DNA of 64,000 nucleotides from Corallococcus macrosporus (GTDB lineage: Bacteria > Myxococcota > Myxococcia > Myxococcales > Myxococcaceae). The translations under genes and the position numbers were made by a program. Shown in pieces: positions 11,499 to 16,092 of this stretch. Numbering within the stretch: position 1 is the stretch's first letter; each line of letters starts with the position of its first letter. A model generated the notes under the pieces. The model made no database searches. It was not told the origin of the DNA and saw only the letters and a program-made list of their open reading frames with translations. Location of the stretch: positions 682,001-746,000 of the forward strand of contig NZ_JAFIMU010000017.1 of NCBI RefSeq assembly GCF_017302985.1, given 5' to 3'.

Positions 11499-11531
11499 AA
11501 AGGAGCCCCGTCCCTCGGGGTTCAATCACGC
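11499..11531 (+). promoter_or_regulatory. Shine-Dalgarno separated from ATG by a hairpin (peptidase copy 1)
   Basis: AAAGGAG at 11499-11505 lies 26 bases before the ATG at 11532, too far for normal initiation. Between them is a perfect hairpin CCCCG-TCCCT-CGGGG (11506-11520). Folding it out leaves 11 bases, near a usable spacing. There is no alternative in-frame start. The second peptidase gene has the same arrangement with a different loop. Confidence 0.6.
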
Positions 11532-13712
11532 ATGCGTCCACTCGTCACCGTCGCGCTGCTCCTCCTGGGGATGCCGGTCCTGGCCCAGGAGCCTTCGTCC
11601 TTCCTCCGCCAGTACGCCGAGACAGGCCGCTTCATGAACGGGCGCCCGGTCGGCGCACGCATCACGCCGGACGAGAAGTCCGTCCTCTTCCTGCGCACGT
11701 CCCCCACGTCCAACGTGCGGATGCTCTACGCGTTCGACGTGGCCAGCGGTCAGACGCGCGAGCTGCTCACGCCGGAGGCCCTCCTCAAGGGCGGGGAGGA
11801 GACGCTGTCTCCGGAAGAGAAGGCCCGCCGTGAGCGCATGCGCATGAGCGCCCGGGGCTTCACGTCCTACAGCCTGTCCGAGGACGGCAAGCGCCTCCTG
11901 GTGCCGCTCTCCGGCCGCCTCTACGTGGTGGACCTCGCGACGGGAAAATCCACGGAGGTGAAGACGGGCTCCGGCGTCATCGACCCGCGCCTCTCCCCGG
12001 ACGGCAAGCAGGTCGCGTACGTGCGTGAGCATGACGTGTACCGGGTGGACCTGGCCGCCAACCAGGAGAAGCGCGTCACGCAGGGCGGCACGGCGGACAA
12101 GACACACGGCCTGGCGGAGTTCGTCGCGCAGGAGGAGATGGGCCGCTTCTCCGGCTACTGGTGGAGCCCGGACGCGAAGTTCATTGCCTACGCGGAGTCC
12201 GACACCTCCGGCGTGGAGAAGCTCACCGTCGTGGACGTGATGCACCCGGAGCAGCCCGGTGCGTCCTTCCCCTATCCGCGCGCGGGCAAGGCGAACGCGA
12301 AGGTGCGCCTGGGCATCACGCCCGTCACCGGAGGCAAGACCGTGTGGGCGCAGTGGGACGCGCGGAAGTATCCGTATCTGGCCACGGTGAAGTGGGACAA
12401 GGGCGGGCCGCTGACGTTGCTCGTGCAGAACCGGCACCAGACGGAGGAGCAGTTGCTCGCGGTGGATCCGGCGACGGGCAGGACGCGCGTGCTCCTCACG
12501 GAGCGGGACGCGGCGTGGATCGACCTGCACCAGGAGTTCCCACTGTGGCTGGAGGATGGCTCCGGCTTCCTCTGGTACACCGACCGCAACGGCGCCTCGG
12601 AGGTGGAGCTGCGCAAGGCGAACGGCGAGCTGGACCGCTCCGTGGTGAAGCCGGGCGCCGGCTTCCGGGCCCTCTCGCGCTACGTGGAGAAGGACCAGAC
12701 GCTGTACTTCACCGGCGACCCGAACCCCACGGAGAGCCACCTGTGGCGCGTGAAGCTCGGTGGTACGCCGGAGAAGGTGGCCACCAGCACCCCCGGCCCC
12801 TCCGTGGAGGGTGGCAGCGTTTCCAAGAGCGGTGGCCTCGTCGTCCTCAACACGCAGGGTCCCAAGAGCATGCTGCGCACCGTCGTGCTCAAGAGCGACG
12901 GCACGAAGCTGGGCGAGCTGCCGGAAGTGGCGCAGGAGCCGTCCTTCACGCCGAACTTCGAGGTCCGCCAGGTGGGCGCGCGGAAGTTCTGGACCTCGCT
13001 CGTGAAGCCGCGTGACTTCAAGCCGGGCCAGAAGCTGCCCGTCATCGTGGACATCTACGGCGGCCCCATCACCACGGTGGTGCACCAGTCCATGTCCATG
13101 CACCTGCTCGACCAGTGGATGGCGGACCAGGGCTTCCTGGTGGTGAAGGTGGACGGCCGCGGTACGCCGCTGCGCACCGCGGAGTGGAACCGCGCGGTGA
13201 AGTACGACTTCGCCACCATCACGCTGGATGATCAGATTGAAGCCGTGCAGGCGCTGGCGAAGGAAGTGCCGGAGCTGGACCTGGGCCGCGTGGGCATCAC
13301 CGGCTGGAGCTTCGGCGGTTACATGGCCGCCTTGGCCGTGATGAAGCGCCCGGACTTCTTCAAGGCCGGGGTCGCGGGAGCGCTGGTGACGGACTGGCGC
13401 GACTACGACACGCACGCGACCGAGCGGTGCCTGGGGCTGCCGGAAGAAAACCCCCAGGCCTACGACGTCAGCAACCTGCTGACGTACGCGAAGAAGGAGG
13501 GGCCCATCGGGGCGCTGCTGGTCATCCACGGCACCGCGGACGACAACGTCTACTTCTTCCACGCGCTGAAGCTGTCGGATGCCCTCTTCCGCGCGGGCAA
13601 GCCGCACCAGCTGCTGCCCCTGGCCGGCTTCACGCACATGGTGGCGGACCCCATCGTCACACAGCGTCAGTACGAGCGCGTCATCGCCCACTTCCAGCAG
13701 AACCTGAAGTAG
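11532..13712 (+). CDS. secreted S9B dipeptidyl-peptidase IV-like protein, copy 1 (altered S1 pocket)
   Basis: 726 residues, starting at the ATG at 11532 with a signal peptide (MRPLVTVALLLLGMPVLAQE). An N-terminal beta-propeller is followed by the alpha/beta-hydrolase domain. The triad is intact: S593 in GWSFGGYMA, D670 in GTADDNV and H702 in GFTHMV. The N-terminus-binding glutamates are kept (AQEEMGRFSGYWWSPD). DPP IV enzymes cut X-Pro/X-Ala dipeptides from peptide N-termini. However, the conserved YTERY motif, whose two tyrosines line the S1 pocket (human Y662 and Y666), reads ATERC here (A629, C633), and the preceding SGAPVVDW of copy 2 reads AGALVTDW. It is therefore probably changed in specificity or weakened. 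It is a tandem duplicate of the next gene. Confidence 0.92.
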   Translation: MRPLVTVALLLLGMPVLAQEPSSFLRQYAETGRFMNGRPVGARITPDEKSVLFLRTSPTSNVRMLYAFDVASGQTRELLTPEALLKGGEETLSPEEKARRERMRMSARGFTSYSLSEDGKRLLVPLSGRLYVVDLATGKSTEVKTGSGVIDPRLSPDGKQVAYVREHDVYRVDLAANQEKRVTQGGTADKTHGLAEFVAQEEMGRFSGYWWSPDAKFIAYAESDTSGVEKLTVVDVMHPEQPGASFPYPRAGKANAKVRLGITPVTGGKTVWAQWDARKYPYLATVKWDKGGPLTLLVQNRHQTEEQLLAVDPATGRTRVLLTERDAAWIDLHQEFPLWLEDGSGFLWYTDRNGASEVELRKANGELDRSVVKPGAGFRALSRYVEKDQTLYFTGDPNPTESHLWRVKLGGTPEKVATSTPGPSVEGGSVSKSGGLVVLNTQGPKSMLRTVVLKSDGTKLGELPEVAQEPSFTPNFEVRQVGARKFWTSLVKPRDFKPGQKLPVIVDIYGGPITTVVHQSMSMHLLDQWMADQGFLVVKVDGRGTPLRTAEWNRAVKYDFATITLDDQIEAVQALAKEVPELDLGRVGITGWSFGGYMAALAVMKRPDFFKAGVAGALVTDWRDYDTHATERCLGLPEENPQAYDVSNLLTYAKKEGPIGALLVIHGTADDNVYFFHALKLSDALFRAGKPHQLLPLAGFTHMVADPIVTQRQYERVIAHFQQNLK

Positions 13713-13830
13713 CGGGAGGCCCCGGGGGCTGCGGGGGCTTCGTCCGCTTCCGGTGGGAATCCGATGGACGGCTGGACGTTGAGGGGGCCGCGCGGCGGCC
13801 GGAGTGTAGGCTTGCCCGCACCTTCCCGCG
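13713..13830. other. spacer between tandem peptidase genes
   Basis: About 120 bp separating the two peptidases. It has a small hairpin, GGCCGC-GCG-GCGGCC, at 13786-13800. There is no gene. It may carry a separate promoter for copy 2, but I cannot point to a clear one. Confidence 0.4.
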
Positions 13831-13866
13831 AAAGGAGCCCCGCCCCGCGCGGGGATTCAGCTACGC
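13831..13866 (+). promoter_or_regulatory. Shine-Dalgarno separated from ATG by a hairpin (peptidase copy 2)
   Basis: AAAGGAG at 13831-13837 and ATG at 13867 are 29 bases apart. A perfect hairpin CCCCGC-CCCGC-GCGGGG (13838-13854) lies between. Folding it leaves 12 bases, almost the same effective spacing as copy 1 although stem length and loop differ. Confidence 0.6.
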
Positions 13867-16092
13867 ATGCGTCAGGTCCTTACCGCCGCCGCGCTTCTCC
13901 TCATGAGCAGCGCCCCCTCCATCGCCCAGGAGCGCAAACCCTCCGCCATGGCCCCTTCGCAAAAGCAGCCGGACACCTTCCTGCGTCAGTACGCCGAGAC
14001 GCGCCGCTTCCAGAGCGGCCGCCCGGTGGGCACGCGCATCACCCCGGACGAGAAGTCCGTCCTCTTCCTGCGCACGTCCCCCACCTCCAACGTGCAGATG
14101 CTCTACGCGTTCGACGTGGCCAACGGCCAGTCGCGTGAGCTGCTCACCCCTGAATCCCTGCTCAAGGGTGGGGAGGAGACGCTGTCTCCGGAAGAGAAGG
14201 CCCGCCGCGAGCGCATGCGCGTGAGCGCCCGGGGCTTCACGTCCTACAACCTCTCCGAGGACGGCAACCAGCTGCTGGTGCCGCTCTCCGGCCGCCTCTA
14301 CGTGGTGGACCGCGCCACGGGGAAGTCCACGGAGCTGAAGACGGGCGCTGGCGTCATCGACCCGCGCCTGTCTCCGGACGGCAAGCAGGTCGCGTACGTG
14401 CGTGAGCACGACGTGTACCGGGTGGACCTGGCCGCCAACCAGGAGAAGCGCGTCACGCAGGGCGGCACCGCGCAGAAGACGCACGGCCTGGCGGAGTTCG
14501 TGGCGCAGGAGGAGATGAGCCGCTTCTCCGGCTACTGGTGGAGCCCGGACTCGAAGTCCATCGCCTACACGGAGTCCGACACGTCCGACGTGGAGAAGCT
14601 CACCATCGTGGACGTGATGCACCCGGAGAAGGGCGGGGAGATCTTCCCGTACCCGCGTCCCGGCAAGGCGAACGCGAAGGTGCGCCTGGGCATCACGCCC
14701 GTCACCGGCGGCAAGACGGTGTGGGCGCAGTGGGACGCGCAGAAGTACCCGTACCTGGCCACGGTGAAGTGGGACAAGGGCGGGCCGCTGACCCTCGTGG
14801 TGCAGAACCGGCTCCAGACGGAGGAGCAGGTGCTCGCGGTGGACCCGGCCTCGGGCAAGACGCGCGTCCTGCTCACGGAGAAGGACGACGCCTGGGTGGA
14901 GCTGGCGCAGGACTACCCGCTGTGGCTGGAGGATGGCTCCGGCTTCCTCTGGTACACCGAGCGCAACGGCGGCCCGGAAGTGGAGCTGCGCAAGGCCAAC
15001 GGCGAGCTGGACCGCTCCGTCGTGAAGCCGGACGCGGGCTACCGCAACCTCGCGCGCTTCGTGCAGGCGGACAAGACGCTGTTCTTCACCGGCGACCCGA
15101 ACCCCACGGAGAGCCACCTGTGGCGCGTGAAGGCCGGCGGCGCTCCGGAGAAGGTGGCCACCGGCACCAGCGGCCCGGCCGTGGAGGGCGGGCTCGTCTC
15201 CAAGAACGGCGGCCTCATCGTCCTCAACACGCAGGGCCCCAAGGCCATGCCGCGCACGGTGGTCCTCAAGGGCGACGGCACGAAGCTGGGCGAGCTGCCG
15301 GAGGTGGCGCAGGAGCCGTCCTTCACGCCGAACTTCGAGGTCCGCCAGGTGGGCCCGAAGAAGTTCTGGACCTCGCTGGTGAAGCCGCGCGACTTCAAGC
15401 CCGGCCAGAAGCTGCCCGTCATCGTGGAGGTCTACGCGGGCCCCACCGTCACCGTGGTGCACCAGTCCATGGCCGCGCACCTGCTCAGCCAGTGGTTCGC
15501 GGACCACGGCTTCCTCGTGGTGAAGGTGGACGGCCGCGGCACGCCGCTGCGCACCGCCGAGTGGAACCGCGCGGTGAAGCACGACTTCGCCACCGTCACG
15601 CTGGATGACCAGATTGAAGCGGTGCAGGCGCTGGCCAAGGAAGTGCCGGAGATGGACCTGAGCCGCGTGGGCATCACCGGCTGGAGCTTCGGTGGCTACA
15701 TGGCCGCGCTGGCCGCGCTGAAGCGCCCGGACTTCTTCAAGGCCGCGGTGTCCGGCGCCCCGGTGGTGGACTGGCGCGACTACGACACGCACTACACCGA
15801 GCGTTACCTGGGCCTGCCCGAGGAGTCGCCCAAGGCCTACGAGGTCAGCAGCCTGCTGACGTACGCGAAGAAGGACAGCCCCATCGGCGCGCTGCTGCTC
15901 ATCCACGGCACCGCGGACGACAACGTCTACTTCTTCCACACGCTGAAGCTGTCGGACGCGCTCTTCCGCGCGGGCAAGCCGCACCAGCTCTTGCCCCTGT
16001 CCGGCCTCACGCACATGGTGCCGGACCCGGTCGTCACCGAGCGCCAGTACGAGCGCGTCATCGCCCACTTCGAGCAGACCCTGAAGAAGTAG
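13867..16092 (+). CDS. secreted S9B dipeptidyl-peptidase IV-like protein, copy 2
   Basis: 741 residues from the ATG at 13867, with a signal peptide (MRQVLTAAALLLMSSAPSIAQE) and a slightly longer N-terminal spacer than copy 1. It is the same propeller plus hydrolase layout and nearly identical along most of its length. Triad: S607 (GWSFGGYMA), D684 (GTADDNV), H716 (GLTHMV). The S1-pocket tyrosines are present as YTERY (Y643, Y647), and the oxyanion tyrosine lies in VYAGP, as in true DPP IV. This copy should be a normal extracytoplasmic dipeptidyl peptidase trimming Pro- or Ala-containing peptides, useful to a predatory proteolytic organism. A strong terminator follows. Confidence 0.94.
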   Translation: MRQVLTAAALLLMSSAPSIAQERKPSAMAPSQKQPDTFLRQYAETRRFQSGRPVGTRITPDEKSVLFLRTSPTSNVQMLYAFDVANGQSRELLTPESLLKGGEETLSPEEKARRERMRVSARGFTSYNLSEDGNQLLVPLSGRLYVVDRATGKSTELKTGAGVIDPRLSPDGKQVAYVREHDVYRVDLAANQEKRVTQGGTAQKTHGLAEFVAQEEMSRFSGYWWSPDSKSIAYTESDTSDVEKLTIVDVMHPEKGGEIFPYPRPGKANAKVRLGITPVTGGKTVWAQWDAQKYPYLATVKWDKGGPLTLVVQNRLQTEEQVLAVDPASGKTRVLLTEKDDAWVELAQDYPLWLEDGSGFLWYTERNGGPEVELRKANGELDRSVVKPDAGYRNLARFVQADKTLFFTGDPNPTESHLWRVKAGGAPEKVATGTSGPAVEGGLVSKNGGLIVLNTQGPKAMPRTVVLKGDGTKLGELPEVAQEPSFTPNFEVRQVGPKKFWTSLVKPRDFKPGQKLPVIVEVYAGPTVTVVHQSMAAHLLSQWFADHGFLVVKVDGRGTPLRTAEWNRAVKHDFATVTLDDQIEAVQALAKEVPEMDLSRVGITGWSFGGYMAALAALKRPDFFKAAVSGAPVVDWRDYDTHYTERYLGLPEESPKAYEVSSLLTYAKKDSPIGALLLIHGTADDNVYFFHTLKLSDALFRAGKPHQLLPLSGLTHMVPDPVVTERQYERVIAHFEQTLKK

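Follow-up and report, generated by a model that had tools for sequence, protein, structure and literature searches.

A tandem pair of dipeptidyl peptidase IV-like genes in Corallococcus macrosporus, one with an altered S1 pocket and a probable shift in P1 preference

The upstream member (copy 1) of a tandem pair of dipeptidyl peptidase IV (DPP IV)-like genes in Corallococcus macrosporus probably encodes an active, exported dipeptidyl peptidase whose S1 pocket is widened and whose P1 preference is shifted, derived from an old tandem duplication of a gene of the copy 2 type. The genes lie in the window (the whole stretch of 64,000 nucleotides that was analyzed) of a 9.8 Mb genome (G000). Both frames are intact, in the same orientation, and separated by a 154-bp gap; their coordinates and lengths were as given in a preliminary description based on the letters alone:

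11532..13712, plus strand: copy 1, S9B DPP IV-like peptidase with a Y666A-type S1 pocket, 726 aa
13867..16092, plus strand: copy 2, canonical S9B DPP IV-like peptidase with six of six S1 positions of the family type, 741 aa

The copies had been called nearly identical along most of the sequence, which is fair in that they share 83% identity and generous in wording, with mismatches or gaps in 127 of the 740 aligned columns. The next best match within the genome was merely 31% identical. Both proteins contained the DPPIV_N propeller (PF00930) and the Peptidase_S9 catalytic domain (PF00326), with E values of 7.7e-70 and 5.8e-46, respectively, for copy 1, and by inspection both carry putative Sec signal peptides, from which export is predicted. 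The AlphaFold2 model of copy 1 (mean pLDDT 89.8) had 5yp1, the Pseudoxanthomonas mexicana enzyme PmDAP IV, as its top PDB fold match (TM 0.89).

Residues were mapped by phmmer alignment of the copies to PmDAP IV, using the numbering of PMC5807507, where the S1 pocket consists of N614, V639, W642, Y645, Y649, and V692, and D646 is equated with human D663. The PmDAP motif in this alignment is V639-T-D-W642-A-L-Y645-D646-T-H-Y649-T-E-R-Y653. Within WRDYDTHYTERY, the S1 tyrosines correspond to human Y662, in the YD pair, and human Y666, which opens YTERY; the Tyr that closes YTERY is human Y670, which is absent from the PmDAP IV S1 list. Copy 1 reads WRDYDTHATERC, with Y662 retained, Y666 replaced by Ala, and Y670 by Cys:

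13383..13385, plus strand: copy 1 L618 (CTG), human P655; Leu in 3/7 copy-1 orthologues, Pro in 130/130 intact relatives
13404..13406, plus strand: copy 1 Y625 (TAC), PmDAP Y645, human Y662; the other S1 tyrosine, retained (phmmer alignment)
13416..13418, plus strand: copy 1 A629 (GCG), PmDAP Y649, human Y666; the changed S1 residue, Ala in 7/7 orthologues
13428..13430, plus strand: copy 1 C633 (TGC), PmDAP Y653, human Y670; not S1, Cys in 4/7 orthologues
15793..15795, plus strand: copy 2 Y643 (TAC), human Y666; intact (phmmer alignment)

One of the six S1 positions is thus altered in copy 1 and five are kept. The change from YTERY to ATERC had been reported with these same two codons (GCG and TGC), correctly, together with the claim that both S1 tyrosines were lost, which was mistaken: in PmDAP IV numbering only human Y666 is lost. 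The second Tyr of YTERY is ruled out as an S1 residue by the same numbering; at its position, four of the seven orthologues have Cys and the other three Tyr. A nearby change from SGAPVVDW to AGALVTDW proved unusual only in its Pro to Leu step (human P655); Ser to Ala and Val to Thr are ordinary, PmDAP IV itself reading AGAPVTDW. Nor were the differences between the copies significantly clustered in the pocket as had been suggested: residues 615-647 contain eight where 4.9 would be expected (scan p 0.17-0.55). Both tyrosines of the canonical proline pocket (human Y662 and Y666) are found in copy 2, and copy 1 has Ala for the latter. Copy 1 is therefore S9B by descent and fold and stands outside the canonical-pocket subset of the family.

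The residues for catalysis and substrate anchoring in copy 1 are the following, each invariant in alignment A1:

12132..12137, plus strand: double Glu E201-E202, N-terminus anchor
13056..13058, plus strand: oxyanion Tyr Y509 (human Y547)
13308..13310, plus strand: catalytic Ser593
13539-13541, plus strand: catalytic Asp670
13635-13637, plus strand: catalytic His702

R104, which corresponds to PmDAP R106, the Arg of the blade 1-2 loop, was also invariant in A1. The double Glu holds the substrate N-terminus and the Arg holds the P2 carbonyl (PMC5807507). Retention of the triad and the double Glu in both copies had been recorded previously and was confirmed. Copy 1 has what defines an S9B member: both domains, the triad with the oxyanion Tyr, and the double Glu with the Arg. 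The loop flanking Y509 (VDIYGGPI vs VEVYAGPT) is a second paralogue-specific tract.

PmDAP IV (5yp1-5yp4) and SmDAP IV of Stenotrophomonas (2ecf) are bacterial S9B DPP IV enzymes of the DPP8/9-like type. They have in common with copy 1 the fold, the triad, the oxyanion Tyr, the double Glu, and the blade 1-2 loop Arg, and their S1 V, W, Y645, and V positions also occur in copy 1. PmDAP Y649, in contrast, is Ala in copy 1, and PmDAP N614 (human Y631) is Phe in both Corallococcus copies. The prolyl tripeptidyl aminopeptidase of Porphyromonas (2d5l) is an S9B enzyme with changed specificity and resembles copy 1 in fold and in the region of the S1 tyrosine motif. There, however, the length of the N-terminal piece cut off has changed and the S1 Tyr is kept (phmmer alignment), whereas in copy 1 the S1 Tyr itself has changed.

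Copy-1 orthologues were found in six more genomes of the genus (G001, G003, G005, G013, G006, G008), upstream of copy 2 and in the same orientation in every pair. The comparison of relatives proposed in the preliminary description recovered its substitutions to different degrees: Y666A is present in all seven orthologues, and Y670C (four) and P655L (three) are not fixed. Conservation was scored over 105 near-invariant positions, defined by at least 97% conservation among 130 intact relatives from Myxococcota, Planctomycetota, Verrucomicrobiota, and others. Y666 was the only one of these changed in all seven copy-1 orthologues, and in three of them it was the sole departure; instead of random substitutions throughout, the near-invariant positions were almost untouched. 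With Tyr in 130/130 intact relatives and Ala in 7/7 copy-1 orthologues, Y666A is, judged from these alignments, not a chance change. The dN/dS check, also proposed there, showed strong purifying selection on copy 1, with a whole-gene codon-model omega of 0.069; the value for copy 2, in the same species, was 0.052. Copy 1 somewhat exceeds copy 2 in omega and third-position divergence and has a lower GC3 (0.93-0.95 vs 0.95-0.98), consistent with its being less constrained or less expressed; given the lower GC3, part of the higher dS of copy 1 may reflect weaker codon selection. Some species nested among the copy-1 holders are without it, and copy 1 is therefore dispensable.

The ring of Tyr666 is expected to form part of the wall around a P1 proline and to pack on it; with Ala in its place, the pocket would be larger and less proline-shaped. 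Copy 1 would still trim dipeptides from N-termini with unchanged serine chemistry, its P1 preference would probably be for a bulkier or non-proline residue, and copy 2 would stay a proline/alanine enzyme. Together, the pair would cover more dipeptide sequences in the predator's digestion of prey protein. Neither Y666 mutants nor myxobacterial DPP IV paralogues were the subject of any paper found in a limited search of the open-access literature.

The pocket was then surveyed across Myxococcaceae, where 96 genomes were searched and active-site residues were read in 91. All 55 single-copy genomes had Tyr at Y666, and all 36 genomes with two or three copies had one copy with an intact pocket. The pocket was altered in every extra copy (39/39; 35 at Y666 and 4 at W659), counts that do not stand for 39 independent events, most of these copies descending from one older duplication. 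The replacements at Y666 were Leu (19), Val (7), Ala (7), and Cys (2), and the four W659 variants carried Glu or Gln together with V656T. An exception was the single-copy genome G081, with W659Q and Tyr kept at Y666. Outside Myxococcaceae, matches occurred in 29 genomes of the order, one in each at the threshold used. In a whole-gene tree from which the pocket columns had been left out, the Ala copies of Corallococcus formed a clade (support 99) apart from an older paralogue clade holding the Leu, Val, and Cys forms and the W659 variants (support 99). The tree requires three changes away from Tyr, of which two losses are firm, because the L066/L168 gene may be a mosaic. Altered specificity rather than decay, as originally proposed, is thus supported by the fixation of Y666A in seven species, the purifying selection, and the pocket changes in extra copies; the grounds first offered for it, loss of both tyrosines and clustering, failed.

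It is quite possible, if somewhat short of an even chance, that DPP IV duplicates in Myxococcaceae survive only with a rebuilt P1 pocket. At least two lineages would then have replaced the S1 Tyr (by Ala, or by Leu, Val, or Cys) or the Trp (by Glu or Gln) and gained new P1 specificities in secreted enzymes, and selection in Corallococcus would preserve the distinct pocket tract in the face of gene conversion. If true, Tyr, Ala, Leu, Val, and Cys would form a natural series on closely related scaffolds for measuring P1 specificity in the DPP IV family, which is a drug-target family. It would also be a bacterial case of neofunctionalized tandem copies whose active sites are kept apart against gene conversion, and would suggest how predatory bacteria broaden their peptide-digesting repertoire.

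Several extra copies have further peculiarities. The older clade departs from other near-invariant positions that lie near active-site motifs in sequence (212, 606, 608, 630-632, 641, 644, 715). L032, L033, L035, and L175 keep Y666 and have W659 changed to Glu or Gln, V656 to Thr, and Y634 to Asp, giving a predicted S1 wall that is charged or polar, which is unusual for DPP IV. L186, L187, L188, L191, and L192 have Ser or Ala in place of the first residue of the double Glu and may also bind the substrate N-terminus differently. P655 is Leu together with Y666 to Val in the Myxococcus-type paralogues L159, L160, L161, L163, and L166, an apparent convergence with the part of the Corallococcus copy-1 clade that has P655L (with Y666 to Ala). 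L066 (6001-8133; the same gene as L168) is a MAG copy whose whole gene groups with Hyalangium-like main copies. This Y666L gene is doubtful as a third independent loss, as it has G525A, a deletion of P526, T641S, and Y643L in common with the L173 group, and either mosaicism or convergence is possible. In genome G012, the DPP IV gene (L219, 852-3073, minus strand) gave two matches that overlap, one to query 1-272 and the other to 253-741, which suggests a frameshift or an assembly error.

The Y666A change could instead be a tolerated one, under relaxed constraint, in an enzyme that is still an Xaa-Pro/Xaa-Ala dipeptidyl peptidase, perhaps slower, and kept for dosage or regulation. The five retained S1 residues agree with this, as do the somewhat weaker constraint on copy 1 and its loss in several species. 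Relaxation should strike many conserved sites, yet only one of the 105 has a fixed change; moreover, separate duplicate lineages have altered pockets and Y666 is changed in none of the 55 single copies. Tolerated change is rather unlikely on this evidence.

The history of the pair was read from codon positions. Copy 1 formed one clade by positions 1+2 (86/99) and by protein (99), and third positions placed each copy 1 beside the copy 2 of its own lineage; the third-position AU test of copy-1 monophyly was not significant (p 0.18), and the lineage constraint in these tests left out G010. Within species, dS between the copies was 0.24-0.26, and between the G000-like and G006/G008 lineages dS of copy 1 was 0.34-0.47. 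Among sites fixed between lineages, paralogue-specific ones occurred in blocks (codons 15-50, 255-259, 344-369, 521-541, 618-671) and species-specific ones lay elsewhere, the two kinds forming a mosaic (runs p 0.003). The paralogue-specific sites fell at codon positions 1-2 in 18/20 cases against 7/18 of the species-specific sites (Fisher p 0.0016). Block 521-541 is the oxyanion loop and block 618-671 the S1 region. The simplest reading, suggestive only, is one old duplication followed by gene conversion over much of the gene, with the oxyanion-loop and S1-region tracts retained. The differences in the pocket region may persist despite partly homogenized synonymous sites because of selection for two specificities. 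The third-position grouping would follow if the G000 and G006/G008 lineages had each duplicated the gene in tandem and acquired Y666A convergently, with no gene conversion. Such separate events are unlikely given the single clade at positions 1+2 and in protein, the rare GCT codon at 369 common to both lineages, and the same gene order and orientation in both. This question concerns history and is compatible with a shifted P1 preference; two duplications, if true, would add weight to an adaptive view of the altered pocket.

DPP IV enzymes dimerize, and at 83% identity copy 1/copy 2 heterodimers are conceivable, in which copy 1 could be a regulatory pseudo-peptidase, the alternative put forward in the preliminary description. 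DPP6 and DPP10 are, like copy 1, duplicated S9B members with altered active sites; these pseudo-enzymes, however, lack the catalytic Ser. Copy 1 has a complete triad, and the Ser, like the Asp, His, oxyanion Tyr, double Glu, and Arg, is present in 7/7 copy-1 orthologues, which makes such a role quite improbable. General decay, to which divergence above copy 2 and loss in some species might point, is hardly credible and is largely refuted by the purifying-selection signal, with frames intact in 7/7 orthologues, the low omega, and near-invariant positions hardly touched.

The leaders of Myxococcaceae DPP IV genes have a recurrent design, namely AAAGGAG, a small GC hairpin, and ATG about 26-33 nt downstream, which both genes in the window follow:

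11499..11531, plus strand: copy 1 leader, with AAAGGAG and a small GC hairpin ahead of the ATG
13831..13866, plus strand: copy 2 leader, same design

The hairpin stems vary between genera with pairing kept (CCCCGC/GCGGGG, ACCCGC/GCGGGT, TCCCGCC/GGCGGGA, CGCCCG/CGGGCG), as if the hairpin shortened the distance from the Shine-Dalgarno sequence to the start. Rfam gave no match and a sigma-70 promoter scan nothing in the locus, and single-sequence fold energies of the leaders were unremarkable. In copy 1 of the G006/G008 lineage (L053 near 5072 and L060 near 5253; also L018 and L015), the usual ATG is ATC, the hairpin is broken, and a new in-frame ATG or GTG lies about 8 nt after AAAGGAG, an arrangement that offers a natural test of the hairpin-spacer idea.
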